DNA of 21,488 nucleotides from a virus, in the IMG/VR virus record IMGVR_UViG_3300008113_000511, positions 1-21,488 of that record. One strand, 5' to 3'. Below, one piece after another: positions 1 to 19,370 of the stretch; position 1 is the stretch's first letter; every line of letters begins with the position of its first letter. The position numbers and the translations under genes are program-made. The notes beneath the pieces were generated by a model, which was not told the DNA's origin, did no database searches, and saw only the letters and a program-made list of their open reading frames with translations.

Positions 1-1550
1 AACAGCCATTACTGTTCCGACTTCGTAATCTTTATCTGCAAGATAATTTTCTGCAAGGTCAGCGTATTGAGCGCTTGTTGCAGTACCGTTAAAAGTTGTT
101 GCGAATACTGTCGCAAATTTAAGTGTAGAAGAACCAAGGTTATAAACGTTAGTCGTATCTGGAAGTGCTGTGCCGCTATAGCGAAGCGTTGGGAACGTCT
201 TTGTACCAGAGAGAGTTTGGGTACCGGTTGTACGTATAACGGTCGAATCGACTGCAAAGCTTCTATCTGCAGTTAGGTCGCCGCCACCGCTTAAACCATC
301 TCCTGCTGCAATATCTCTTGAAGTTCTTACAAGAGTGGTTGCTATTCTTGCATCAGCAACAGTTCCAGAAGAGATATTTGAACCGTTAAGCGATGTAAGT
401 GATGCACCAGAACCAGAGAAGGCTACAGCAGTAATCGTGTTTGCTGCAAAGTTACTCGATGCATCTCGAGCTACAACCGTTCCGGCCGTTGCAAGGTTAG
501 TTGCATCTACGTCCCATGTTACTGCAGCAGAGCCATTGAAGTTTGATCCGGTGAGATAGTTACCGGCAGTATGCGCTTGGTTTGTATTTGCAGTAATTGT
601 GATATTCGCTGAACCGTTAAACGATACGCCATTGATTGTTCTTGATGTCTGAAGCGTCGTTGCAGTTGATGCGTTGCCAGCAAGAGCAGCGGTAATGGTA
701 TTCGCTGCAAAGTTTTGGGCCGCATCCCGAGCAACTACCTTATCTGCTGTAGACGTTGTGGTTGCATCAACAGCCCAAGTAGTAGCCGCTCCACCATTGA
801 AGTTTGAACCGGTGAGATATGTACCACGAGTGAGTGTATTTGGTGTATTTGCTGTAATTGTAATTGCAGCAGAACCATTAAAGTTAACACCATTAATTGC
901 TCGGGCTGTAGCAAGAGTAGTGGCTGTAGACGCATTACCTACAAGATCTGCCGTAATCGTGTTTGCTGCAAAGTTACGAGATGCATCTCTTACTACAACC
1001 TTGCTAGCAGTCGATGCGTCTGTGGCATCAACCGCCCATGTAGTTGCGGCTGAACCGTCAAAGTTCGAACCGGTAAGGTACGTACCACGAGTAAGAGTGT
1101 TATTCGTATTTGCAGTTACAACAATATTTGCTGAACCGTTGAATGATACTCCATTGATTGTCCGTGCGGTCTGTAAAGTAGTAGCTGTTGAAGCATTACC
1201 AGTCAACGCTGCAGTGACTGTTGTTGCAGTCACTGTGTTTGCAGTTACGTTATTCGCAAACACTTGATTCCAACGCATAAGGTTGGAGCCAACTGAATAT
1301 GAAACGTTAGCTGAAGGAATCAGATTTGAACCTACAGAATCTGTAGTAAAACTAATAAGGGCTGCGGTATTTGCAGTTACGTTATTCGCAAACACCTGAT
1401 TCCAACGCATAAGATTAGAGCCAAGAGAGTATGAAACATTTGCTGTAGGCAGAGCATCAGTATCAAAGCCCGCGCCACCTATAAAGGACAAGGTGGTCAA
1501 AACGTTTAAATCATTGATATTTGATGTATTGAAGATATAATGAGCGGAGT
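1..1550 (-). CDS. C-terminal tail fibre segment with tandem repeats (partial)
   Basis: This is a third frame, open for about 515 codons to the window edge. It begins in meaning near NTSNINDLNVL. The first ATG in frame is at 1410, and no convincing ribosome site precedes it. In order it holds: two copies of a SNLMRWNQVFANNVTANT module; three 87-residue repeats (GNASTATTL, then TINGVSFNGSA, YLTGSNFNGSA, DASRNFAANTIT); a segment SGSGASLTSLNGSNISSGTV common in phage fibres; SGGGDLTADRSF; and a final NLGSSTLKFATVFATTF region followed by QYADLAENYLADKDYEVG. The last two are typical of the region just before the C-terminus of long or side tail fibres. The long open frame and ordinary codon use argue that it was under selection until recently. 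The stop codon and any C-terminal chaperone or peptidase domain lie outside the window. Confidence 0.75.
424..1206 (-). repeat. Three tandem 261-base fibre repeats
   Basis: Three contiguous units lie at 1206-946, 945-685 and 684-424, each 261 bases or 87 codons, so the frame is kept. The spacing is exact: the sequence GCTGCAAA on the plus strand recurs at 443, 704 and 965. Each unit encodes GNASTATTL, a T-I/A-R-x-I-N-G-V turn, FNGSA, an ANT stretch, YLTGSNF, TW-x-VDAT, a VV-x-RDA segment and FAANTIT. Units one and two share TLTRGTYLTG; unit three differs there (AHTAGNYLTG). The copies have diverged at many bases, so they are not a recent duplication, but they could still recombine and change fibre length in steps of 87 residues. 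Confidence 0.93.
1239..1443 (-). repeat. Two 132-base-spaced copies of an RWNQVF module
   Basis: Two nearly identical segments at 1371-1443 and 1239-1311 lie exactly 132 bases apart (44 codons). Each encodes SANVSYS(L/V)GSNLMRWNQ or close to it, followed by VFANNVTANT. A more distant third form appears near 130-190 (NVYNLGSSTLKFATVFATTF). The module recalls the short beta-turn unit that in many fibres comes before the C-terminal domain. Confidence 0.85.
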
Positions 1551-1985
1551 AATAGTGGCTGATGTATTTGCAAGACTTAAATTGAGCGAATACAAAGTAG
1601 AATTTGTGCTCTGAGTCTTCACAGTTCTTGCGCTTGTACCTTTGAGTCTTACTTCACCAGTAGCTTCAAGAGCAGTGACTGTAGTGTTTGATCCGGTAAA
1701 CGCAGCATTCGCAGTTACTGTGAGAATACCATCGATATTCGTATTCGAATTAAAATCAGCTAAGCTATTTACTACAAGAGAATCTGAAGCATTGAATCCG
1801 AGCGTGATTACATCGACGTTAGCGTTGAGAGAAGCAGCAGTTACTATTGTGTTTGAAGTAACATCAAAGGTTGTACCATCGATATCAACTCTCGCTCCGG
1901 TAAACTCGGAGCTTGTACGTACAAACAATTGCCCAGCATTAATGGTTGTATTTGCAGCAGAAATTAGAACTATCCTCCAACCGTC
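1506..1985 (-). other. Middle fibre segment in second frame
   Basis: This frame carries about 145 fibre-like residues (NTTINAGQLFV, VTSNTIVTAASLNANVDVITLG, LTVTANAAFTGSNTTVTALE) rich in Thr, Asn, Ser and Ala, like the segments on each side. It has no ATG near its beginning; the first alternative codon is a TTG at 1928 without a ribosome site at a suitable distance. Its final residues before the stop (SSIHQISMI) do not look like fibre sequence, so the meaningful part probably ends near 1550. It is best read as the middle part of the frame-broken fibre gene. Confidence 0.6.
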
Positions 1986-2131
1986 ACGTTCGGCTGTGGT
2001 TGGGTCACTGATGTGAGTACCACCGTTCCCATATCGAATACAAGAGCGTTGGTTGTGTCAATCCATGAGGCGAAAGTATCCGTTGCCTCAACGTTTGCAC
2101 CTGCAGCTAAATAGATGTGTGCCTTTGCCAT
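1970..2131 (-). CDS. N-terminal fragment of the fibre gene
   Basis: This 53-codon open frame starts with MAKAHIYLAAGANVEA and includes TFASWIDTTNALVFDMG, a virion-attachment-type N-terminus seen in fibres of marine T4-like phages. It ends at TAG right after VGG, whereas the fibre-like sequence continues one frame over. If translated alone, it would yield only the attachment module. Just before the stop the mRNA reads GGAGGA, a ribosome-site-like sequence. Treat it as the first exon-like part of the broken fibre gene rather than as a separate gene, unless expression shows otherwise. Confidence 0.6.
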   Translation of the reverse strand: MAKAHIYLAAGANVEATDTFASWIDTTNALVFDMGTVVLTSVTQPQPNVTVGG

Positions 2132-2346
2132 TACTGCTTACTCGCTCCTAATTCTCGTACCGCTTGGCGGATGTCTAACATCATAGCCATTATGTCCTGC
2201 ACATTACGCTCAAGTTTATCTAGACGTAATGCATCTTCTTTCTTTCGCTTGTGCTCTGCGAGAGCTCTTCTATTTGTATTTATTAGAGCTCTCGTAGTAA
2301 TGTCGCGAGAATAGTCTTTTTCTTCGGTTTGGATACGTTCTTGCAT
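2131..2346 (-). CDS. Small helical protein of unknown function
   Basis: This 71-residue protein starts at the overlapping stop of the giant gene (TAATG), and its own stop overlaps the next fibre start in the same way, so it is firmly held in the operon. It is charged and helical throughout. Residues 1-25 (EEKDYSRDITTRALINTN) are followed by a basic patch (AEHKRKKEDALRLDKLE) and a heptad-like stretch (VQDIMAMMLDIRQAVREL) suggesting a short coiled coil. No membrane segment or enzyme motif is seen. Small charged proteins of this type often follow the DUF4815 gene in related phages, as far as I can recall. A fibre chaperone, an assembly factor or a small coiled-coil linker would fit its position, but nothing in the sequence decides between them. 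Confidence 0.75.
   Translation of the reverse strand: MQERIQTEEKDYSRDITTRALINTNRRALAEHKRKKEDALRLDKLERNVQDIMAMMLDIRQAVRELGASKQ
2277..2284 (-). promoter_or_regulatory. Possible late promoter element before the fibre gene
   Basis: AATAAATA followed by C occurs on the minus strand inside the 71-residue gene, 146 bases upstream of the fibre start. The leader would be longer than usual for T4 late transcripts, so this is the weakest of the three candidates. Confidence 0.22.
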
Positions 2347-5300
2347 TATGATAGCGCCAATACTCTAAGATCTTTCAGACGAGGTACTAAGCTATAAGAG
2401 TTTGCAAGAAGTACAATCTTCACCGCAAAGTACTTATAGTTAGTGTAAAGCGCACCATCTGGATCTTTATAGTTGATTGTATCTGCATTCAGATAGGCGC
2501 CTAGACCATTTCCAAGTGTAGTAGTACCAAGTTGATATTCAAACTCGCGATAATCTTCACGGTTAACAGAAGATGATGTTGAATCTGTTTCAGGCTTGAT
2601 ATACAATCTTGTCCATTCAACTTCTTTAAAGTTACGCGAATCGGTAGAAGACAAGAACTTTGCATAAACCCGAATATCTGTACCAGTTGGTCGATATGCG
2701 CCAAGTAGAACACGAATATCGTCGGCATCCATACCATCTGCAAGCTGAATCATTCTTGAGACATATTTGGAATCAGCATCGCCAAGACCAATTCTTTCTA
2801 GACTATCGGTAACAGTGTTATTCACCATATATTCACCAATCATAACAGATGATGCATCTAGATTAATGAGAGGAGAAGTATCTCTAGTTGTAGTAGAGGT
2901 ATTTAACATATCCACTGTAAGAGTAAACGAGGCTGTACCGGTGTTGTTGCTTCTACTTTGAATAACGTATGAGTCATTTGTCAAATAGTTAATAGCATTA
3001 AAGGATATGTCCCGCGCCGCGGTTGTAGTACCATTATACAACTTACTCGCATTAAGACTTGTACGAGTCTTTGAGAAGTTTGCTCGGCTAATCATTGGCT
3101 GCATGTAGCTTATGTTTAGATCATCAACACTTACTACATTCACAGTAGCACCCGATGTTTCACCGCGTAGAGTGTCTCCTGCTGCAAAGATGAATCCAGC
3201 TTTTGCAGTGGATCCTTCAAGGATCATCTTTGCTGGTTCACCCGCGTTAAAATACATCATTCTACCAACTGGAGAAGTATAATGCTCGGCAATTGTGGAT
3301 ACTGAATAACGTGATGGCTCAAAGAGAGTCATTTGAGTATTACTATTAATCGTTTTAATTTTAAGGGTCTGATATGTAGACCCATTGTATGTAACGATAT
3401 GACTATTCACAGTATAATCAGTAGTAAACGCCGTACCGGTACCCGTTACGATGTTACTTCCGTCAACAAGTGTTACTGTACCTGTCAGGAAAGAAGCTTT
3501 TTCAATAAACACTTCTTCTGCATCACTAAACGTACCAGTAAGATCAGTGATCGTAAAGAATTCGTGGTTGTCATTTGTAAGCGTCGCGGCTCCAGATGCA
3601 GTGCTGAATCTTGCTGCATAAAGAGTAAACTTTAGATTTTCATTCTGATAAGGTGTCCAAGTTCTTGCATTAGTAGAAGTAAATAGAACCCCAGCATTTG
3701 TATCTGAAGTAACCGCTACGTTCGTGTCAACATCTCTTTCACCTGTACGAGAGATCCATACAAGGTAGTCTGGATCATTGCCATCAGGAGCAATAACAAC
3801 GGCGTATTCAATATTTGTACGTAGAGCAACTGGCGCTTCGAAAGTTATTGTAGTTGCAGTTAGTGCGTTTGAAGCGGGAGTGGTTGTTCCAGCATTCACT
3901 TGGCTTGCATTCAGATAAACTGATGCAAAAGGTAGTGCAGGTCCTGTTGGGAATCCGTTTTGCACTTCTCTGATTTGAATACCTACACCTTTACCAGCTC
4001 TGCTCTTTTTTGCGAAGTACAGATCGAGCTTAGTGATATAGACGTTAGTGTCTGACGAAGCATCTGGATCGATAATGAAAGTTTGTGCAAGAGGATCGGA
4101 ACCTCTACTACGAGTTTCTGTAGTAACAGTTGTGTCAAGATCAAACTGTGGATGAACTGTTGTTGTTGATAAACTTGTTTTAGTTACAGCAAAGTTGAAG
4201 GCGCTGTAGTTCGTAGATGAATAAGAAGTTGCTGCATCCTTATCAGCAATATCTGGAACGTCAAGAATTTCAAGCTTTCTATCACCAACAAAGAATGTAT
4301 TTGCTGGAATTTTAAAGACTGCACGTAGAACACCATCCGAATCAGACTGAATTACTCTAGCACTTCCACTAAATGATTGTGTGCGTGCAACAATAATGCC
4401 ATCAGCAAGCTGTTCAGCATCAGCGTCGGCTCCGTTTACTACATGGTTGTTAACGTCAACCCCATCGAAGAAGAAGAAGAATCGAGTATTTGGTCGTAAG
4501 CTTACGACACGAATCTGAATTTGGCGGCTTCTCATATAAGGAAGAAAGTTTACATCAGTAACAAAATCACCAAGATTTTGTTTAGTCGTCTCACCCTCGC
4601 TAACGTCAAGCTCTGTTGTAGTAATCTGAGTTACTCTATTAGAGAGCCGAGTGCGCTCCACCGAGGTAAGAGGTACAAATTCACTAAGTGCTTCTGTAAA
4701 TTCAATGAATGGAGTAGCTAAATCAGTTTCAAAATTCACTGCAGGAGCGCGTACGGTGTCAGGACCAGTGTCATATGTAGGATTGATTTGCATCTTACCA
4801 ACATAATTGTAGAAACTTGTTGTACAGTTTTTCAGAGCAGTAGCATATGGCTGAGAAGCAGATTCGAGAACATAATCGGTCTTATTTAGAGTTACTGCTT
4901 TATTTCCGAACTTTGTAACGTTTGTCCCTGTAGAATATTTCAGATTAAGATTATACTGGCGAATCTTTGGAGTGATATTATCAAGAGTCTGGTCAATGGC
5001 TGCAGCAAACTCTCCTCCATTGACATCAGCTAATATCAAGTTCTTAAAATTATCTACAAAAATACCGTTTTTAAATCGATCAGCACCAGTCGCATCAGTT
5101 ACGAGGAAGTCTTTTGCTTTATTCTCAAGAAGTGATAGTGAAGTATAGTACTCGAGATTTGAAATGCGCTTATCGATACCGCCAATATCTTGCATGGTAT
5201 ATCGACGAGTTTGATTCGATTGGATTTTTACACCATACTCAGGTTTACCGATTCTATTTGCGCTATTTGTATCAAGTGTTGGGAACGGTGGAACATCAAG

Positions 5301-7805
5301 TCTCGCCAACAACATACCCTTTGTTGGTTCTGCTGGGTATGAAGAGTTTTCAGCTGGCACACCTTTGATTAACTCAAAGTCACCATTCTGATCGATAACA
5401 AGAAGATCTTTTCTGCTTAGGTAATAAGAATACTTCGTATTGATCTTTTGTCTTGGAGCAGGGAATTCAAGATTTGCGAATGTTTCAGTGAGTGAAGGAT
5501 TGATTGTAGCACTTGACGCTGTTTCAGAATACGCTGCTGTATTTGAAGCATATGGGCGAAGATCGATTACGTCTCTGAGATAGTACTTATTACCGTCAGC
5601 TGCTGTGTAAGATGGAATGCTTTCTGTACGAATAGCATTCGCTGCGAGTGTAGTTGACACATCGTCAACTGGATAGCTGTCAACCGTAAAGAAGTGACCT
5701 GTTGCGTCACTTTTCTTGAAAACTTTTACTTTTACTACAAGTTTGTCATTTGCACCGACAGTAAACGTTTTCTTTTTACGGATTCTTGATAATCCATAAT
5801 AATCGTCATATTGATTTGTAAGAAGATCAAATTGTGTCGATACATTATTTGTTGCGCTGTTATCTGTCGCGTTAGTTTCAAGGGTAGCCCATGCTGTTGC
5901 GCTAGTACCTCTCCAGACACCTTCAACCGAGTACACATCTGGCAGACCTAATGAATAGTTACCCGTAACACCGCTTGCGTTCGTATTTGCTTGAACTTTT
6001 ACATATACTGTTCTGAGTAGTTTATCATCAAATGCGACTGGTGTTCTTTGCGCGTTGAAGTAAATCGAAATTGGCAAAGACGTACCAGGATTCTTGACTA
6101 AGTTAATAGTAATAGTGTTTAAATTCGAATCAAGCGTAGCTGAAGAAATTTCCAGAATTTCAGCATTCGCGACCACAACACCTGCAGCTGCTTTTGCGCT
6201 GATTATGAAGTCAAAGAGATCATCACTCGGCAGCGCACCACTTGCATAAGGGAAAATATCAGCTGTACTAAAGCTAAACGTATTTGTAGTAATCGTAATA
6301 TCAGTCGACGTTCTGTAAATAAAGCTAGTTTCAGTTTCATCTACAGATTTGATAAATGATTTGCCGATAGGGAAGAACAGTTTATTAAATGTTGCATCGA
6401 CGAGAACTGCATTACCACTCACGAGAGTAACCGTTGCTGATCCGAGCGCAGATGCGATAGTACGAGTATCCTTGAACGAATAAGTTGATCCCATTTTAAT
6501 TGCAAAGATATACAGACGGTATGCAGTTGCGCTTTCTTTTGTAACGGCGCGAACACGAGCTGTACCAATGGTAGTACCACCAGTATTCTTTAGGTTAACT
6601 TGTTCGAATGTTGTAAAATCAAATCTACCGGTGTAGCTTGTAACGTTTACATACATTCCGTAGTTAGTATTAATGTCTTGGTTTTCAACAGTACTAAAAG
6701 TATTTGCTTCATCAATCGGAAGCTTAATCTCGTTGAGAAGTTCGACACGCTGCCCATCGACATACGCAAGGCCAGCGCTTACATACGCGTTGATGTTAGT
6801 CGAAATGACTGGGTCTCTATCAGATCTAATTTTAAACTTTGAAACTACGTAATCGCCCGATTCTTCTGCAGTACGACGCTCCATTTCTTTTTCAATCGTA
6901 CTATACTGAGTCTGCAGTCTACGACGTACTACTTTACCATTTGCATATTCTTGAATAGCAAAGAATGTTTCGTCAGCTTTTGCTTCAGCAATAGTTTTAA
7001 CCACGAGAGAAGGGGTTAATTGTAAGCGATCAGCACCAGGAGCATTGAAGTTATTAAAGCCATTTGCGTTGTCAAGAAGAGATGAATCTTCATTACTATC
7101 AACGATAATTTCAGTGGTCTGAAACCCTACGACAACGCCATCTGGCGCGCTTGAGTACTTTGAAACAATTGTAAGAGCATTTTCAAAGCGAACAAAGTGG
7201 CCTTTTTGGTAAATAATGCCTTCGCCACATCTTACACCATAACCAGTTCCGATTGGGTTCGCATCAACGGTTGTCGGAGCAACAGTAACAAGATGAAAAT
7301 CTGTGACATAATCGCCACTCGCATCTGCGGCCTTCAACTGAATTTCTTCACCTGCAGCAAAGGTTTTCACGTTAGTATTTGCTACAACGTTACCCTTTGT
7401 GTATTTTAAGAAAAGAGTACTTAGGTTTGGTGACTGAGATTCTAAACCATATTCTGTAGCAATAACAATCGCTTCTACACCAGTTTGCTTACCAACAGCT
7501 TTCATGCCTACATACTGATTGACATCAGTTGCTATTTCTGCGCCGGTTGTATTTTTTGCAATGTCAAGTAATTTTGCATAAGCAAGCTTCTTTTCTTCGA
7601 CAAAGTTACCACCTTGAACAATAGTTCCTTCGGTAAGAATATTGTCACCGAATCTTTCGATTTGATTTTGAAGTATGGTTTGCAATTGTGTAAGTTCGCG
7701 TGCTTGCACCGCGACTGCAGGCTTAAACAAAACCCTATGAAAGTTTTTTGCTTCATCAAAATCGTCAAAGTACGGCGATTGATTAAAGTCGGTGTTAAGA
7801 CCCAT
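2346..7805 (-). CDS. Giant DUF4815-type virion structural protein
   Basis: This is the largest gene here: 1819 residues without a break. The N-terminus (LNTDFNQSPYFDDFDEAKNF, then VLFKPAVAVQARELTQLQTI and RFGDNILTEGTIVQGGNF) is the recognisable start of the DUF4815 family found after gp8 in many marine T4-like phages. Further hallmarks are VKVFKKSDATGHF, YYLRDVIDLRPYAS, the segment SLRPNTRFFFFFDGVDVN near residue 1105, where a run of five Phe is encoded by a TTC repeat, and a C-terminal DTINYKDPDGALYTNYKYFAVKI. Near residue 1550 a GDTLRGETSGATVNVVSVDD module resembles those in the gp7- and gp8-like proteins. Its place suggests a peripheral baseplate or tail-pin role, where T4 has gp9 to gp12, but no T4 equivalent is evident. 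The ribosome site is GAGG 9 bases before the ATG. The stop overlaps the next start. Structural role likely, exact role unknown. Confidence 0.82.
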   Translation of the reverse strand: MGLNTDFNQSPYFDDFDEAKNFHRVLFKPAVAVQARELTQLQTILQNQIERFGDNILTEGTIVQGGNFVEEKKLAYAKLLDIAKNTTGAEIATDVNQYVGMKAVGKQTGVEAIVIATEYGLESQSPNLSTLFLKYTKGNVVANTNVKTFAAGEEIQLKAADASGDYVTDFHLVTVAPTTVDANPIGTGYGVRCGEGIIYQKGHFVRFENALTIVSKYSSAPDGVVVGFQTTEIIVDSNEDSSLLDNANGFNNFNAPGADRLQLTPSLVVKTIAEAKADETFFAIQEYANGKVVRRRLQTQYSTIEKEMERRTAEESGDYVVSKFKIRSDRDPVISTNINAYVSAGLAYVDGQRVELLNEIKLPIDEANTFSTVENQDINTNYGMYVNVTSYTGRFDFTTFEQVNLKNTGGTTIGTARVRAVTKESATAYRLYIFAIKMGSTYSFKDTRTIASALGSATVTLVSGNAVLVDATFNKLFFPIGKSFIKSVDETETSFIYRTSTDITITTNTFSFSTADIFPYASGALPSDDLFDFIISAKAAAGVVVANAEILEISSATLDSNLNTITINLVKNPGTSLPISIYFNAQRTPVAFDDKLLRTVYVKVQANTNASGVTGNYSLGLPDVYSVEGVWRGTSATAWATLETNATDNSATNNVSTQFDLLTNQYDDYYGLSRIRKKKTFTVGANDKLVVKVKVFKKSDATGHFFTVDSYPVDDVSTTLAANAIRTESIPSYTAADGNKYYLRDVIDLRPYASNTAAYSETASSATINPSLTETFANLEFPAPRQKINTKYSYYLSRKDLLVIDQNGDFELIKGVPAENSSYPAEPTKGMLLARLDVPPFPTLDTNSANRIGKPEYGVKIQSNQTRRYTMQDIGGIDKRISNLEYYTSLSLLENKAKDFLVTDATGADRFKNGIFVDNFKNLILADVNGGEFAAAIDQTLDNITPKIRQYNLNLKYSTGTNVTKFGNKAVTLNKTDYVLESASQPYATALKNCTTSFYNYVGKMQINPTYDTGPDTVRAPAVNFETDLATPFIEFTEALSEFVPLTSVERTRLSNRVTQITTTELDVSEGETTKQNLGDFVTDVNFLPYMRSRQIQIRVVSLRPNTRFFFFFDGVDVNNHVVNGADADAEQLADGIIVARTQSFSGSARVIQSDSDGVLRAVFKIPANTFFVGDRKLEILDVPDIADKDAATSYSSTNYSAFNFAVTKTSLSTTTVHPQFDLDTTVTTETRSRGSDPLAQTFIIDPDASSDTNVYITKLDLYFAKKSRAGKGVGIQIREVQNGFPTGPALPFASVYLNASQVNAGTTTPASNALTATTITFEAPVALRTNIEYAVVIAPDGNDPDYLVWISRTGERDVDTNVAVTSDTNAGVLFTSTNARTWTPYQNENLKFTLYAARFSTASGAATLTNDNHEFFTITDLTGTFSDAEEVFIEKASFLTGTVTLVDGSNIVTGTGTAFTTDYTVNSHIVTYNGSTYQTLKIKTINSNTQMTLFEPSRYSVSTIAEHYTSPVGRMMYFNAGEPAKMILEGSTAKAGFIFAAGDTLRGETSGATVNVVSVDDLNISYMQPMISRANFSKTRTSLNASKLYNGTTTAARDISFNAINYLTNDSYVIQSRSNNTGTASFTLTVDMLNTSTTTRDTSPLINLDASSVMIGEYMVNNTVTDSLERIGLGDADSKYVSRMIQLADGMDADDIRVLLGAYRPTGTDIRVYAKFLSSTDSRNFKEVEWTRLYIKPETDSTSSSVNREDYREFEYQLGTTTLGNGLGAYLNADTINYKDPDGALYTNYKYFAVKIVLLANSYSLVPRLKDLRVLALS

Positions 7806-9911: not shown

Positions 9912-11165
9912 TTACGCCATCGCTGCAGTTCTGCTTGCTTCAATCATGGATGTACCGTCTGAAATGAATTCAACTACAAACGTTCTTGCTGTTGTTGTAC
10001 CAGTTGCGAGTGTGCCAGTTGTTTTAAATCCTGTTCCGAAGGTAATAGTATAAGAAGTAGTACCACTCGTTAGGATAATGACTGATGCTCGAGAACCTGC
10101 AGGAGCTACGGTTGTAGTAAATGTCGCGGTGGCAGTCGGTGTTACTTTTACCGCAGTATTTGTTCCAAGCGCCATTGCGGTAGTACCACTTGCATGAGCG
10201 GTGTATCCACCATAGATTTGTTGACTGGACTTAATATTACCTACTACGTCAAGCTTCTCTGTAGCAGATAGATTATTAACACCGACGTTACCTAAGAAAT
10301 AACTAGGAGCAGTGCCACCAGCATAGAAGTTCCATGATGTACCCCCGCCTGTCGCAATTGGGTTATCACTACGAACACCAAATGTTGTTTTTCCAGTCAC
10401 AATAGTTGAAGCTGTTGGTCCAGCCACATACACACCGTAGTTATTATTTGCGCCTATTAACGCATTCGAAATAAAGCCGTATTGATTTGTAACCGTTGCT
10501 GCTGCTCCAATTGTTCCTCCCGTAGCTCCGTAATGGGCTAATGTCGGAAGAGTAAAAGCAGAGTCTGCTACTCTTGGAGCAGTTCTAAATCCATATGCTG
10601 CAGTGGTTACATCACTTTCAATTTCAGAAATTAAATATGCGCCGTACGAAGTCGCGCCGCCAGTAATATCTTTGCGAAGATACAAACCAACTGTGGCAGC
10701 TGCAGCGCCTCCAAGTCCAATTCCGCCATCCTGTCGCACTACTAATCTTGTAGCAAAAGTGCCTGCATTCCTGGTGCTAATATTTATGGAGCCACTTTCT
10801 GCAGAGCCTGTTACTGTTGTAGCTTCAGTCCAAATTTGAGCATAGTCTACTGCATCACCAGCACTGTTTTTACCTCTAAAGGTAATACTACCGAGATCAT
10901 CTCCATTTGCTGGAGAAGCGCTGTTTCGATAGAACACAATATCGGGCGCGCCAGTTGCACCAGAGTCTGTACTTGTCACTACAAGAGCATCACTTGCCGA
11001 AGATGTTGTAAAGGTAAATGAACCATTACCAACCATGCTTTTTAATTCAGCAGATGTGATCTGCTTTTCGGTATTTGCGCTCACATCGTAAATTATGAAT
11101 GAGTCAGTCGCAGCTACATCAGTACCTACGATAGGTGTTAATTGGCTTATTGTTGTATTTGCCAT
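9912..11165 (-). CDS. Fibre-like structural protein between gp7 and gp8
   Basis: This 417-residue protein has fibre features and no enzyme motifs. Residues 1-45 (ISQLTPIVGTDVAATDSFII, then TEKQITSAELKSM) match the short N-terminal module common to many phage fibre and adhesin-like proteins. Residues 45-330 are Gly/Ala/Thr/Ser-rich beta sequence with recurrent phrases such as LVVRQDGGIGLGG and FLGNVGVNNLSATEKLDVVGNIK, which are typical of trimeric fibre shafts. The last 90 residues (VKVTPTATATFTTTVAP, then SYTITFGTGFKTTG and ISDGTSMIEASRTAA) resemble a C-terminal domain found in other phage tail or head decoration proteins. It starts at the overlapping gp7 stop (TAATG) with an AAGGAG site. In T4, genes 7 and 8 are adjacent, so this gene is an insertion relative to T4. 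Receptor binding or decoration is inferred from composition and place only. Confidence 0.7.
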   Translation of the reverse strand: MANTTISQLTPIVGTDVAATDSFIIYDVSANTEKQITSAELKSMVGNGSFTFTTSSASDALVVTSTDSGATGAPDIVFYRNSASPANGDDLGSITFRGKNSAGDAVDYAQIWTEATTVTGSAESGSINISTRNAGTFATRLVVRQDGGIGLGGAAAATVGLYLRKDITGGATSYGAYLISEIESDVTTAAYGFRTAPRVADSAFTLPTLAHYGATGGTIGAAATVTNQYGFISNALIGANNNYGVYVAGPTASTIVTGKTTFGVRSDNPIATGGGTSWNFYAGGTAPSYFLGNVGVNNLSATEKLDVVGNIKSSQQIYGGYTAHASGTTAMALGTNTAVKVTPTATATFTTTVAPAGSRASVIILTSGTTSYTITFGTGFKTTGTLATGTTTARTFVVEFISDGTSMIEASRTAAMA

Positions 11166-14100
11166 TATACTGTAGTCTCCTTGCGGACTGTTAAGTTATC
11201 TCCAGATTGTGTAGTTAATACTAGTCCTGATTGAGTAACTAGTTGATTCACAACCGGCATTGTTTTTGTAATACTGCTTTCAACGATTGTAGTCGGCGTA
11301 AGTATATGTGAGCTCTTTACCACGCTACCAAACATTCTTGTTCCGGCAACATGGAAAACTTTCTTTAATATACGTTCATAACGATTCAGTGATAAGCCCG
11401 ACAACACGTCATAAGAGTATTCTTGATAGTATTTATTGTCATGAATTTTCTTCTCGGAGTTCAGATGAGAATTTGTTGTTCTCCAATAACCTTGGCTTGT
11501 TCCTTGACGTTGTGTTCTCGTTGTCGCTGTAATAATGAATTGATTGCCTTCTCTCTCAAGAGTAACCGCGCCATCATTAATGTAACCGAACCCAGAGTCA
11601 ACTACTTCAAGTCCGGTAGCAACACCAGAGGCAGAAATTGCTTCGTCAAAAATGACCGCGTTGTATCCTATTGGGTTAGTTGTTTCATCCGTAACTGCTT
11701 CTGCGAGTGTAGCCCGAGCTCCTGTGACGCTACCGATTAACTCATAGCCTTCACTAAACGCAATCGCAATAGATTTTCTTTTAAGATATATATCGCCAGC
11801 GCCATTTGTAATATCAACAGCGCTAATGGTACCTTTTACGAAAGTAGAACTTCCGATTACTTGCGTAATTTCTTCGCCTATTGCAAAAGAGCCATTTGTA
11901 ACTCCGGTTACTCTTAAGATTAAGTCTCTTCGACCGTAAGCCGAAACATATCTATTACGCACGTCAATGAACGGAGCAGCGGTGTATTCAGTTCCAGGGT
12001 TAATTCTTGACAGGAGTGATATTCCGCCAACATCCATCGTTACGACATCGAGGGTATCTGCAATTAGGTTACCGAATTCAGCATTTGGATTCTTTGGGAA
12101 TCCATAACCAAAATCCATTTCTACTGCAAGAACAGCATCAGTGCCGGCGCCGTTGCCAGGAAGTGATAGTGTTGGCGCTTGATAATATCCAGATCCGGGT
12201 ATGTCAACCGTGATAGATGTTATAGTGCCACTTCCATCGCACGTAATGAAGGCTCCGGCCGGATTCGTAGGAGTGCCATTTGCAAATCCACCACCTAAAA
12301 ATTCAATTCGATCGTTGGTAGTGTATCCGGTGCCACCACTAGTAATATCAACACCACTTACTAAACCGAAGCCAGAGCTCTGACCGTTAATTTGAATTTC
12401 TGTATACGGAACTCCTGCAACGTTTGTACCGCCAATGATATCACTATATATTGTGACGTTTTCTTCTTTATCAGATAGCGCTCCAATTTCAAAGTTTGCG
12501 CCTCTACCACCAGCTATTCTTGTAATTTCTGCTTGAATCTCTATAATAGTGTTATTTGAGTCTCGAGGAGGAGAAAGTAAATCTTCACGCTTTGTATACA
12601 CGTAAGATGTGTATGTGTTCGAATAAAAGAATGGAGAGGTATTTCCGTAAACGCCGATGGAAGTAGTATTTTGCCCTATTATGATGCCTTCAACATGCTC
12701 AGTATTTGCTAGACTAATAATACCGTTAGCGTCATTGTTTGCTTCTAGATATACAGTAAATGCACCAGCAGCATCGTTTGTATTTACCGTATATATTAAG
12801 TTTGACTTGTCACCCTTAATTTTTTTAGTAATATCAAAATCTCCAAACACCACGTCGACTATTATTGTATTCGAAGAGTTGTTAACACTTGTGACTCTAC
12901 CGCGAGCTCCAATCGAAGTGTTTGGAATATTAACCGAAGTTGGAAGTGCTTCTGCAGAACTTGTTGCGCCAATGAGAATAGTATTCGCGGTTGTACTAAA
13001 AGTGCCCCAAGAAGGTTCGAGCACAATAAAACCAGTATTCGATTCAGCCGCCACGTAATTACCAAACGAATAATTTGTTAGTACATCAAATTGATTTGCT
13101 GTAAATGTAATTGATCCTGCAGTCAAAGGAGTCTTATTCAGTTTGATCTGTGTAGCGCTAAGAACACTTGAAATGCGAGTACCCGATTTAAACGCGCCAG
13201 TTCCAGCTGTTTGAGTTAATGGTTGGCCGGCTATTAAGTTACTTGTAGAAGTAACTGTTATAGTGGTGCTACCAAGAGTAAGTGTTGAGGTTAGCCCTGC
13301 TACAACTACACCATACGTCTCATATATAGATTGCTTTACCGTTTCTCCATCTGTAAACACACCGGTTAAATTAGTGATACCGATAATGTTTTTACTTTCT
13401 TCTGTGATAGTTTCGCCTACAGAGTATCCAATGTTATTACTACTCAAAGTAAGAGCACGCTGGGCTGCAAAAGTACCCGAATTTGTTAAGATTTTGATAA
13501 TACCATTACTTGAAGCAGATTGAGTAACTACAGTATTAGATCCGTCTGTTATAGTGTTTGATGTAGCAACAATGATACCGTTTGCAACAAGAGTGCCTGA
13601 GCTTGTTCTGCCAACAATATACTTTCCAATTAAACCATTCGCTGAAAGTATATCACCGGCGCTTTGAATGTTAATGACTTCAATCGGCTGATATACCTTT
13701 TCGTACTGAAGATAAGACTGCGTTGGGTTATTAACGAACAAGATGGCATCAGAAAGATAAACATCTGTAAGGCCATCAGTTGAAAAGCCCCAGCCTCCAT
13801 CGAGTATTTCAAAGTCGACTCGGCCAGTTGCACTAACAACCTCAGTTACTTTTACAAGACCTTGCTTACCTTCTTCAGTGACAACGTTAAAAACATCACC
13901 AACAGCGTTATTCCGGCCCCCAAGAATAACCTCGAGGGAAGTCATCGATCCTTTGATTCGAGGAGATCTCGCGATGACTCCGTTGTCAGTTACTCTTTCA
14001 CCGGTTCTAAAATTTCCGCGTAATCCACTTAGATAAAATACATCAAAGATCTTACCTTTAATTCTTTTGCGAACAATGCTTTCAACAAAAGCCTTTGCAC

Positions 14101-14590
14101 CAGATCTTACGCCAGTGATTTCTTTATTAAGAAACGACGCATTGCGAGATGAAATGGTTACTTCAAGATAAGAAGGCTTATACCAATCTGAATCAGACGG
14201 TTTAAGAACGTCTTCGCCTGGATAATATACATTCACATCTTCTTCAAATAAAAGCTTCATTAAAAGAGATAGAGATTCTTTTGAACCTTTTGAGCGATAG
14301 TAATTTACAATATTCTTAATTGCAAACTTAGTATCATTTCTAAATTTAAACGGAAAATCTGCTAAATATGTTTCCTTGAATGATTTTAAAAAGTCATCCA
14401 TCGACGTATCAATATCGCGCATATCAAACATTTGGCGTGATATTTTAGAAGCGTAGCGGTTGTCTGATTCTAAAAACTCGTAATAAGCTTTTGTGAAAGC
14501 AACTAATGCTTCGCCTTCTTCACGATAAATATCAGGAAATTGTGTCTCAATTAATTGAGAGATATCCTTAGTGAAGTTAATCATATTCAT
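11165..14590 (-). CDS. 7: Baseplate wedge initiator, gp7-like, large
   Basis: At 1141 residues it is close to T4 gp7 (1032), the protein that starts wedge assembly and bridges to the periphery. Position after gp6 supports this. Residues 1-145 are helical and acidic/aromatic (PDIYREEGEALVAFTKAYYEFLE, then IVNYYRSKGSKESLSLLMKLLF and YYPGEDVLKPSDSDW), as in gp7-like proteins of marine T4-like phages. The middle consists of repeated beta modules: GERVTDNGV near 197, many Ser/Thr/Asn-rich stretches, and several GxGY turns (GGWGFSTDG near 265, GGTGYTTNDR near 753, GSGYYQAPTLS near 800, SGFGYINDG near 1000). The C-terminal part (YYQEYSYDVLSGLS, RILKKVFHVAGTRMFG at about 1055-1090) is again conserved-looking. 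Two ATGs lie six bases apart; the first is taken because it has a GGAG site 10 bases upstream and overlaps the gp6 stop. Identification as gp7 rests mainly on order, size and the terminal regions. Confidence 0.8.
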   Translation of the reverse strand: MNMINFTKDISQLIETQFPDIYREEGEALVAFTKAYYEFLESDNRYASKISRQMFDMRDIDTSMDDFLKSFKETYLADFPFKFRNDTKFAIKNIVNYYRSKGSKESLSLLMKLLFEEDVNVYYPGEDVLKPSDSDWYKPSYLEVTISSRNASFLNKEITGVRSGAKAFVESIVRKRIKGKIFDVFYLSGLRGNFRTGERVTDNGVIARSPRIKGSMTSLEVILGGRNNAVGDVFNVVTEEGKQGLVKVTEVVSATGRVDFEILDGGWGFSTDGLTDVYLSDAILFVNNPTQSYLQYEKVYQPIEVINIQSAGDILSANGLIGKYIVGRTSSGTLVANGIIVATSNTITDGSNTVVTQSASSNGIIKILTNSGTFAAQRALTLSSNNIGYSVGETITEESKNIIGITNLTGVFTDGETVKQSIYETYGVVVAGLTSTLTLGSTTITVTSTSNLIAGQPLTQTAGTGAFKSGTRISSVLSATQIKLNKTPLTAGSITFTANQFDVLTNYSFGNYVAAESNTGFIVLEPSWGTFSTTANTILIGATSSAEALPTSVNIPNTSIGARGRVTSVNNSSNTIIVDVVFGDFDITKKIKGDKSNLIYTVNTNDAAGAFTVYLEANNDANGIISLANTEHVEGIIIGQNTTSIGVYGNTSPFFYSNTYTSYVYTKREDLLSPPRDSNNTIIEIQAEITRIAGGRGANFEIGALSDKEENVTIYSDIIGGTNVAGVPYTEIQINGQSSGFGLVSGVDITSGGTGYTTNDRIEFLGGGFANGTPTNPAGAFITCDGSGTITSITVDIPGSGYYQAPTLSLPGNGAGTDAVLAVEMDFGYGFPKNPNAEFGNLIADTLDVVTMDVGGISLLSRINPGTEYTAAPFIDVRNRYVSAYGRRDLILRVTGVTNGSFAIGEEITQVIGSSTFVKGTISAVDITNGAGDIYLKRKSIAIAFSEGYELIGSVTGARATLAEAVTDETTNPIGYNAVIFDEAISASGVATGLEVVDSGFGYINDGAVTLEREGNQFIITATTRTQRQGTSQGYWRTTNSHLNSEKKIHDNKYYQEYSYDVLSGLSLNRYERILKKVFHVAGTRMFGSVVKSSHILTPTTIVESSITKTMPVVNQLVTQSGLVLTTQSGDNLTVRKETTV

Positions 14591-16806: not shown

Positions 16807-16814
16807 TATTTATT
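16807..16814 (-). promoter_or_regulatory. Possible late promoter element before gp25
   Basis: The minus strand reads AATAAATA here, one base from the T4 late promoter element TATAAATA. It overlaps the stop codon of the M15 gene and lies 20 bases upstream of the gp25 ATG, with an AAAGGA ribosome site between. T4 late promoters need only this -10-type element. The match is short and AT-rich, so it could be chance. Confidence 0.4.
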
Positions 16815-18396
16815 GAGCATTGCTTGGTGCCATGGCTGGACCAGATGGCAATTTATTAATTTCGTCTGGAGTAAATCTTGGATTAGCGCCTGATACGTGA
16901 TCTGCAATTGCAGCAGCAATAAGTTGTGGATTGCCACCGCCCCAAGTACGAGTATTTGCTAGATCGATATGTGTGAACTTTGTATTACTATTTGGGTAAT
17001 GACCAATACCGCCAACACCTTCTCTGCTTGCAAGCTTAACAAGGAATGCTCTTTCTTCTGCAGTTAAATTTGCGCCAGAAATATCAAGAGCCATACCTCT
17101 CATATGAAAGCTATTCTTTGCAACACCTTTTGTACTCTTTGCGAGTTCAGCATTCTTTTCAGGTGATCGATAAGCGCTATTAATAGTAAGAGGTTTACCG
17201 ATTGCTCTCGCAATTCGGAATGCGATTACATAAAGCATTGGATGATGGTTAATAACATAAGTCCATCCACCGCGGCCTGACTGTTGATCCGCGACGGGAG
17301 TAGCAGCGTGCGTAATCGTAACATCTCCAATACTCACACTTCCGCTTGTAGAATTGAATAGCTGAGTGAGGAATGTGCGTTCATCGTTGCTTATCACTGG
17401 ATCACGAAGCTTACCATTTCTTTGCGCAGCTTCCTCAGTAACAAGTCGAGGAGTTTCAGGCGCCATTCTTGGCAAACCGGCTTCAACTGACTTTGCTGTT
17501 CGCTCGTTTGACATCTGCTTAATACCGTACTCAGCTAAAGCAAAGTTGTTAAACATACTCTTCAAAGAATCGAGTGGTGATTGCATAAATGATGTAATAC
17601 TATCTGAAAGTTGGCAAATTATCATTAAAAGATGAGCCAGCGCCTCAGGAGTTAATTCTTCGAATTGACCAGCAACCTTTGCAATGATTTCTTCAATTTT
17701 ATCTTTAATTGATTGAATACTTAAATCCGATAAGAATTGTTTTACTCTTTCAACTCTCTTCATGAATCTACCAAAAGCTGCTTGTATCTGAAAAGCATAA
17801 GCTTTAATTTGGTCGACAAAATTATTGATCATTGAAAGTATTCTATCTTTCAACTCATCAACCATTTCTTGAAGCATTAACTTCCAAGCATTTAATCTTG
17901 CGATTATGCCCGCAAGAGAAAAGTTTTTCAGTTCATTGATAAGCTTAGCACCAGCAGACAAAAAGCCAATAATTTGGGCCAGCTTATTTACAAGGCCAGC
18001 ACAACTATTTCCTGTCGCTCTTTTCGCAAAATTCGGATCAAGATAATACTCCATGATATCAAACACGGTTATTACTTGTGGAGAAGGAAGTGGAAGTAAA
18101 CTAATTTGATAGATATCGTTGTCAGTGTATCCGGCAAATTCTACAAATTCAGCAAAATCTCTCGGAGTTAATGGCTCCACTAATTGTCGAGCAGTAATAA
18201 TCGGGTATGTTGTTGGGAGTTTCGCTATTAAATTATTTAATGAAGACGCCATTAGCGAAACGTTATGACGAGCTAATGCATCGCCGTCGTACGATATGCG
18301 TTGATCGACGCTTAATACTCGCTGAAGTGCTTGCTCAGGAGTAAGTATACGCGGAGAAAATTTTGAACCGATAGAATCAAATGTATTACAAGACAT
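16810..18396 (-). CDS. Baseplate-associated protein with C-terminal M15 peptidase domain
   Basis: This 528-residue protein has two parts. Residues 1-330 are mostly helical. A long amphipathic stretch at about 135-300 (e.g. LQEMVDELKDRILSMI, IKDKIEEIIAKVAGQF) probably forms coiled coils or a helical bundle, and I recognise no family there. Residues 340-490 look like a zinc D-Ala-D-Ala peptidase of the M15 group: SAYRSPEKN at 407-415, then NSFHMRGMALDIS with His431 and Asp438, and FTHIDL with His476 as the third likely zinc ligand. Such domains cut peptide stems of peptidoglycan. The gene sits between the spike and gp25, so the product is probably virion-borne and near the hub, where T4 places gp26/gp28/gp29-type proteins. 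The start has an AGGAAG ribosome site. The stop overlaps a late-promoter-like sequence for gp25. The C-terminus is Pro/Ala-rich. The enzyme domain is well supported; its position in the particle is inferred. Confidence 0.8.
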   Translation of the reverse strand: MSCNTFDSIGSKFSPRILTPEQALQRVLSVDQRISYDGDALARHNVSLMASSLNNLIAKLPTTYPIITARQLVEPLTPRDFAEFVEFAGYTDNDIYQISLLPLPSPQVITVFDIMEYYLDPNFAKRATGNSCAGLVNKLAQIIGFLSAGAKLINELKNFSLAGIIARLNAWKLMLQEMVDELKDRILSMINNFVDQIKAYAFQIQAAFGRFMKRVERVKQFLSDLSIQSIKDKIEEIIAKVAGQFEELTPEALAHLLMIICQLSDSITSFMQSPLDSLKSMFNNFALAEYGIKQMSNERTAKSVEAGLPRMAPETPRLVTEEAAQRNGKLRDPVISNDERTFLTQLFNSTSGSVSIGDVTITHAATPVADQQSGRGGWTYVINHHPMLYVIAFRIARAIGKPLTINSAYRSPEKNAELAKSTKGVAKNSFHMRGMALDISGANLTAEERAFLVKLASREGVGGIGHYPNSNTKFTHIDLANTRTWGGGNPQLIAAAIADHVSGANPRFTPDEINKLPSGPAMAPSNAQ

Positions 18397-18407: not shown

Positions 18408-19370
18408 TTAATTTGAGTCGTCAACATCGGTGGCAGATATACCACCTGCCGAATACGTAACAGGTTGTTGTGAATCAACAACGTATGCAGGAGGTGCTCC
18501 AAGAGCTGTTTTATTTGCAGGTTTTGCTTCTGCAGCTGAAACAGACTTTCCTGGTGAGTTGAGGTCGATGGTCGAGCCAACTACAACGATAGGCGATCCT
18601 CCTCCACTAAGCCCAAGTCCCTTGCCTTGAATATTCATTTCTTCTGAGCTTAAGATATCAGCGCTCTTACTTGTGACGCTAAGTGATTCACCGCTCTTAA
18701 CGTGCATCTCAGTAAGACTTTCAATCGAAAGCTTTCCTTCAGCGTAAAGATCGATTGTGTCTACCTTTGCAGTCAATGCAATTCTTGATGTTGCTAGATC
18801 AATACCATTTCCAGAATTCAGATTAATCGCCCCACCTGCTAGGAGGTTGATGTCTTGTCCAGAGATCAGATCTATGCTTGACGCACTATTGATTACAGTC
18901 TTACCACCAGATACGCCAATTGTATATCCAGCTTTATACATGCCTTCTTTCGCACCGTCAAACACTTCGATTGAGTTATCGTCTGAAGTGAGTACGATGT
19001 CACCAGCAGAACTAATCGTGATTGATCCGTCTTGTGCGATGGTGATACGGCTTCCAGATTGGTGAATGATGTTAATAAATTCTGCATTCGAGCCACCACC
19101 AATCTCGACATAGCTGCCGCCATATCTTGCTTGCCACACAGTACTTTGAGTGGAGCCGGAGAATGGCACTCCAGGTTCACTCCAGGTGTTTCCAGAAGGC
19201 ATGACAACATCCTTCTTAGCCATACCAACGGCATTTAAATACGGCGTTCTCTCAAGGCCCTCTCCGTTCATTTGAGCAGGTAGTGATGTGCGGCCATAAT
19301 TATTAATGACTTCACTTACACCTGGTTGTACGGCCGGATTTGCATCTTCTGCTATGTTATACGTTGCCAT
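18408..19370 (-). CDS. Spike beta-helix (needle) protein, gp5 C-terminal-like
   Basis: This 320-residue protein corresponds to the C-terminal part of T4 gp5, the triple-stranded beta-helix that forms the needle. Residues 62-120 carry the usual lead-in (NTWSEPG, SYVEIGG, IIHQSGSRITIAQDGSITI). Residues 105-270 are a run of short beta-repeats alternating polar and hydrophobic residues with G/S/N turns (INSASSIDLISG, DINLLAGGAINLNSG, KLSIESLTEMHVKSG). Residues 275-320 are a low-complexity tail that may interact with a tip protein or a neighbour. In T4 the same region is part of gp5 and is released by cleavage; here it is a free gene with its own ATG and a GGAG ribosome site 7 bases upstream. The next gene starts 11 bases after its stop. 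The beta-helix assignment is confident. How it attaches to the lysozyme protein is inferred from T4. Confidence 0.83.
   Translation of the reverse strand: MATYNIAEDANPAVQPGVSEVINNYGRTSLPAQMNGEGLERTPYLNAVGMAKKDVVMPSGNTWSEPGVPFSGSTQSTVWQARYGGSYVEIGGGSNAEFINIIHQSGSRITIAQDGSITISSAGDIVLTSDDNSIEVFDGAKEGMYKAGYTIGVSGGKTVINSASSIDLISGQDINLLAGGAINLNSGNGIDLATSRIALTAKVDTIDLYAEGKLSIESLTEMHVKSGESLSVTSKSADILSSEEMNIQGKGLGLSGGGSPIVVVGSTIDLNSPGKSVSAAEAKPANKTALGAPPAYVVDSQQPVTYSAGGISATDVDDSN

Follow-up and report, generated by a model that had tools for sequence, protein, structure and literature searches.

How a phage tail fibre comes to be spread over three reading frames is the question raised by one end of the IMG/VR virus record IMGVR_UViG_3300008113_000511, of which positions 1-21,488 (21,488 bases, here called the window) were analyzed. 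An earlier note on this DNA described two frame breaks in the same direction, and both are seen: the frame that opens at ATG 2131 stops at TAG 1972-1970 and is succeeded by a second frame and then by a third. The last was said to remain open for more than 500 codons, as it does, over 1-1500 together with a short lead-in to about 1529. Judged against its relatives, in which it is continuous, the locus is one ordinary predicted tail-fibre gene of a T4-superfamily myovirus, from which the record lacks two predicted coding stretches of 229 and 205 bp, each loss shifting the frame by one. Its apparent spread over three frames probably does not reflect the biology of the phage.

Genomic context

The record is classed as linear in IMG/VR, and the window is probably a fragment. 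On the strength of PHROG and Pfam matches, it is assigned to the baseplate/fibre cluster of a T4-superfamily myovirus. Genes matching baseplate wedge subunits (phrog_219, 261, 17744 and 438) are collinear and adjoin the fibre, and further matches within the cluster are to phrog_430 (hub/lysozyme) and Pfam Phage-Gp8. The DUF4815 protein encoded upstream of the fibre (Table 1) is 40.7% identical to a protein of Sinorhizobium phage phiM7, and through it the nearest cultured relatives are Sinorhizobium phages phiM7, phiN3 and phiM12, at ~40% identity. A search with the upstream protein retrieved 15 related viral loci.

Three other proteins of this neighborhood may be recorded. A 417-aa intact protein amid the baseplate genes (9912-11165, minus strand) has no match in PHROG or Pfam, and a 320-aa intact protein of the cluster (18408-19370, minus strand) has none in PHROG. 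The C-terminal part of a 528-aa protein inside the cluster (16810-18396, minus strand) matches the peptidase/endolysin families phrog_17373 and phrog_894.

Two coding stretches are absent from the record

The decisive comparison is with a near-identical locus, L003, and its full contig L026 (IMGVR_UViG_3300008450_000748), which are 99.83-100% identical to the window over 13.6 kb. L003 carries one intact fibre gene. Its gene order is that of the window and the same sequence flanks both junctions, but it retains the 229-bp and 205-bp stretches and reads as a single ORF of 950 aa, which the window does not. The missing stretches encode ~77 and ~68 fibre residues, respectively, or ~145 codons in total. 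The earlier note had taken each change of frame to equal one lost base, and in this it was mistaken: because 229 and 205 are both 1 mod 3, each loss mimics that of a single base. Losses of such length rule out single-base sequencing error. Reads with one extra base at each site, and a continuous frame as the result, were the earlier note's first test against its own reading; the near-identical contig does have the continuous frame, with long stretches extra instead of one base.

Table 1. Coordinates of the fibre remnants, their junctions and the adjoining genes in the window
Feature	Position	Strand	Description
3' fibre fragment	1..1529	-	Third frame, with repeats, open to the window end
Junction 2	1529..1530	-	205 bp (L003:9048-9252, fibre codons 278-346) absent; 2-bp overlap 'AA'
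Middle fibre fragment	1530..1970	-	Second frame; same sequence as codons 131 to 277/278 of the L003 fibre
Junction 1	1970..1971	-	229 bp (L003:8377-8605, fibre codons 54-130) absent; 1-bp overlap 'A'
5' fibre fragment	1970..2131	-	ATG 2131, 53 codons; TAG 1972-1970 made by the junction
71-aa gene	2131..2346	-	Small, intact; start and stop overlap neighbors (TAATG); read from sequence
DUF4815 / 'VrlC-like' virion structural protein	2346..7805	-	1819 aa, intact, upstream of fibre; PF16075, phrog_358

What remains of the gene is homologous to fibres, as seen from its 100% identity to the corresponding parts of L003 and from the tail-fibre PHROGs on its third fragment. The 5' fragment, 100% identical to L003 codons 1-53, matches PHROG 25747 (tail fiber protein; E=1.5e-4). 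The second frame is fibre-like down to ~1530 and meets its stop at 1508-1506 on the minus strand. The 3' fragment, cut by the contig end ~95 codons short of the fibre stop codon, matches tail-fibre PHROGs 6722, 1833 and 20242 as well as minor tail protein PHROG 356. A nucleotide search of annotated phages gave only short matches, which lie in the first and the repetitive third parts. The conserved N-terminal region (MAKAH..., GNAH..GI.SANT...LRGG) is not in one frame in the window, where only its first 53 residues are kept and the GNAH...LRGG part falls in the missing segment.

Outside the fibre the two sequences differ as strains do. Between 1971 and 13625 the window and L026 are 99.83% identical, with 20 substitutions and no indels, and the portions 1-1530 and 1529-1971 are each 100% identical; 16 of the 20 substitutions are silent, which indicates ordinary strain divergence. 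Half of the substitutions (10/20) cluster within 0.85 kb at 11851-12701, in the large baseplate wedge gene at 11165-14590, perhaps as a small recombined patch. That no comparable break occurs elsewhere, as the earlier note had held, is borne out by collinearity with L026 (1971-13625) and with L031 (12173-21435), in both cases with substitutions only. Over the part of the window that could be compared (1-21435), no indels are seen apart from the two fibre losses, whose junctions lie 0.44 kb apart, both less than 2 kb from the contig end.

The missing stretches are conserved among relatives

The 5' region of the fibre is in one open frame in all 10 relatives inspected, nine of them aligned and one (L013) viewed separately. 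L005 and L006 retain both segments, and L004 retains the first and then diverges. A homologous first segment, in frame and with the conserved GN.H..G..SANT...LRGG stretch, is found in L007, L008, L010, L011 and L014, and L013 is likewise open across it. Synonymous and nonsynonymous codon differences in the first segment number 12:1 against L005, 35:5 against L006 and 33:11 against L004; in the second they number 23:12 against L006. Since the stretches are kept in frame in relatives, and since the differences in the first are mostly silent, they are best regarded as old, conserved coding sequence.

This conservation reaches cultured phages. The tail fibres of Sinorhizobium phages phiM7, phiM12, phiM19 and phiN3, members of the T4 superfamily, match the N terminus through residue 93, which is inside the first missing segment, and are 44-45% identical over these ~93 residues; beyond them, up to residue 351 of the query, no similarity is detectable. 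As in the window, these fibres adjoin a DUF4815/VrlC-like gene, and they are intact. PHROG 25747, to which the N-terminal fragment of the window is weakly matched, also weakly matches the intact L003 fibre over residues 10-265; the window copy of this fibre is interrupted after codon 53.

The junctions and their surroundings

No notable direct or inverted repeat was found at the junctions. Within 12 bp of their ends, direct matches reach 3-4 bp at best and inverted matches 5 bp. When all positions of the fibre gene were scanned at equal spacing, direct matches of 3-4 bp occurred nearly everywhere and inverted matches of at least 5 bp at ~28% of positions. The matches at the junctions are no longer than those common by chance, and repeat-mediated deletion and hairpin skipping were rejected on this ground. 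A 5-bp CAGCG/CGCTG pair sits at the ends of the 205-bp stretch and is not counted as evidence. A slippery site or strong structure was found at neither junction, and a search of the window for relocated copies of the missing segments returned just chance matches of 11-15 bp. Scans of IMG/VR, leaving out the window's own record, found neither junction in any other contig.

Across ~50 near-identical contig pairs, which are not independent and cover mostly baseplate genes, ~436 kb of alignment contained no indel of at least 20 bp; this total leaves out pairs with the window, self pairs and two pairs at 97-98%, and it includes almost no fibre genes (only L010/L011). The fibre remnants carry no substitution in 1,973 bp against L026, where 3.4 would be expected (P ~0.03). 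There is thus no sign of decay, although any inactivation would be too recent for relaxed selection to show.

Origin of the breaks

Several readings of the locus founder on the relatives. A comparison of two contigs alone cannot separate loss from gain, and the window could on that basis be ancestral, with L003 and its relatives having gained two segments. We regard this as wholly improbable, given that homologues of the first segment are in frame in relatives down to ~55% identity, with similarity reaching the cultured Sinorhizobium phages, that L003, L005 and L006 have the second in frame, and that the window's own frame is broken without both; insertion in the relatives is refuted by these in-frame segments. 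Programmed recoding (frameshifting or bypassing) or a phase-variable switch might be thought to yield a full fibre from three frames, and both shifts do run in the same direction. However, each shift removes 205-229 bp of coding sequence that is conserved, the sites lack a slippery sequence, repeat or strong structure, and no relative has the shifts; the probability of this reading is negligible, and as a cause of the breaks recoding is refuted by the continuous frame of L003. Three open frames in succession might equally be three separate small genes. This too is hardly credible: only TTG codons serve as the listed starts of the second and third frames, the relatives have a single gene, and none was found with the parts as separate genes.

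The earlier note had proposed that the gene might be a recently inactivated receptor-binding protein, might be a switchable adhesin or might contain two local errors. The last fits best, provided that each error is understood to have removed a whole stretch (229 and 205 bp) and not a single base. The adhesin finds no support: ~145 codons are gone, neither site has an inverted or slippery repeat, the junctions occur in no other contig, and the relatives display no alternative state. Inactivation would mean that a subpopulation of the phage has truly, and very recently, undergone both deletions, leaving a fibre-null, defective genome maintained by complementation or through another adhesin. We hold this to be a genuine possibility, though not the expected one. 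The junctions are clean and their flanks identical, the fibre genes of the group differ greatly in module content and in length (950, 1096, 1819 and 1929 aa), the lack of substitutions in the remnants agrees with an event of very recent date, and the first loss ends translation after 53 codons, so that the second could be neutral. Against this, two independent out-of-frame losses lie close together with no other lesion, the junctions have no second sighting in IMG/VR contigs, their ends lack direct repeats, the fibre is intact in all relatives inspected, and simple loss of the fibre should come at a cost to infectivity. That a natural subpopulation with two such fresh deletions should persist without a fibre, by complementation or by means of another adhesin, seems to us rather unlikely.

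We favor, with moderate confidence, an assembly or library artefact as what broke the fibre in this record. The reasons are that two independent, nearly blunt, frame-breaking losses stand 0.44 kb apart in a gene that the phage apparently needs, that 21.4 kb of comparison shows no further indel, that both sites are less than 2 kb from the contig end, and that neither junction recurs in another IMG/VR contig. The indel-free contig pairs and the unsubstituted remnants are counted on the same side. Contig ends are reported to be misassembled often, and a tool for viral contigs trims 300-2,000 bp to correct this (PMC11727651). The loss would have arisen while the contig was made, through chimeric reads, false merging of reads or a join made across fibre sequence of low coverage close to the contig end. 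That N runs are generally stripped from scaffolds was also considered as an explanation, but records L055 and L060 of the collection, which keep theirs, weaken it. Against an artefact, an assembler of the de Bruijn type normally requires reads that span a junction, a contig with two junctions of like kind could represent a real molecule, and the overlaps of 1-2 bp are shorter than false merges typically need.

If an artefact is indeed responsible, the phage itself most likely carries an intact fibre gene. Its product, going by the family names, would most likely be a tail fibre with its N terminus on the virion and its repetitive remainder directed towards the host. The case is one for caution, as what appeared to be single-base breaks were losses of 229 and 205 bp that became visible only beside a near-identical contig. 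Seemingly inactivated fibre genes in metagenomic viral contigs should be compared with sibling contigs and with reads before receptor switching or decay is claimed; a search of the literature on structural variants in metagenomic fibres found nothing direct.

Variation among the fibres of the group

The fibres of L003 to L008 have a conserved N terminus and vary widely in length and module content (L003, 950 aa; L004, 1819; L005, 1096; L006, 950; L007, 1929; L008, 1931). The L005 fibre has an additional block that resembles its own adjoining repeat. From L013:9431 onward (plus strand), the fibre gene is followed by a 675-aa ORF that by eye is B12-binding radical-SAM-like, an unusual companion for tail genes.
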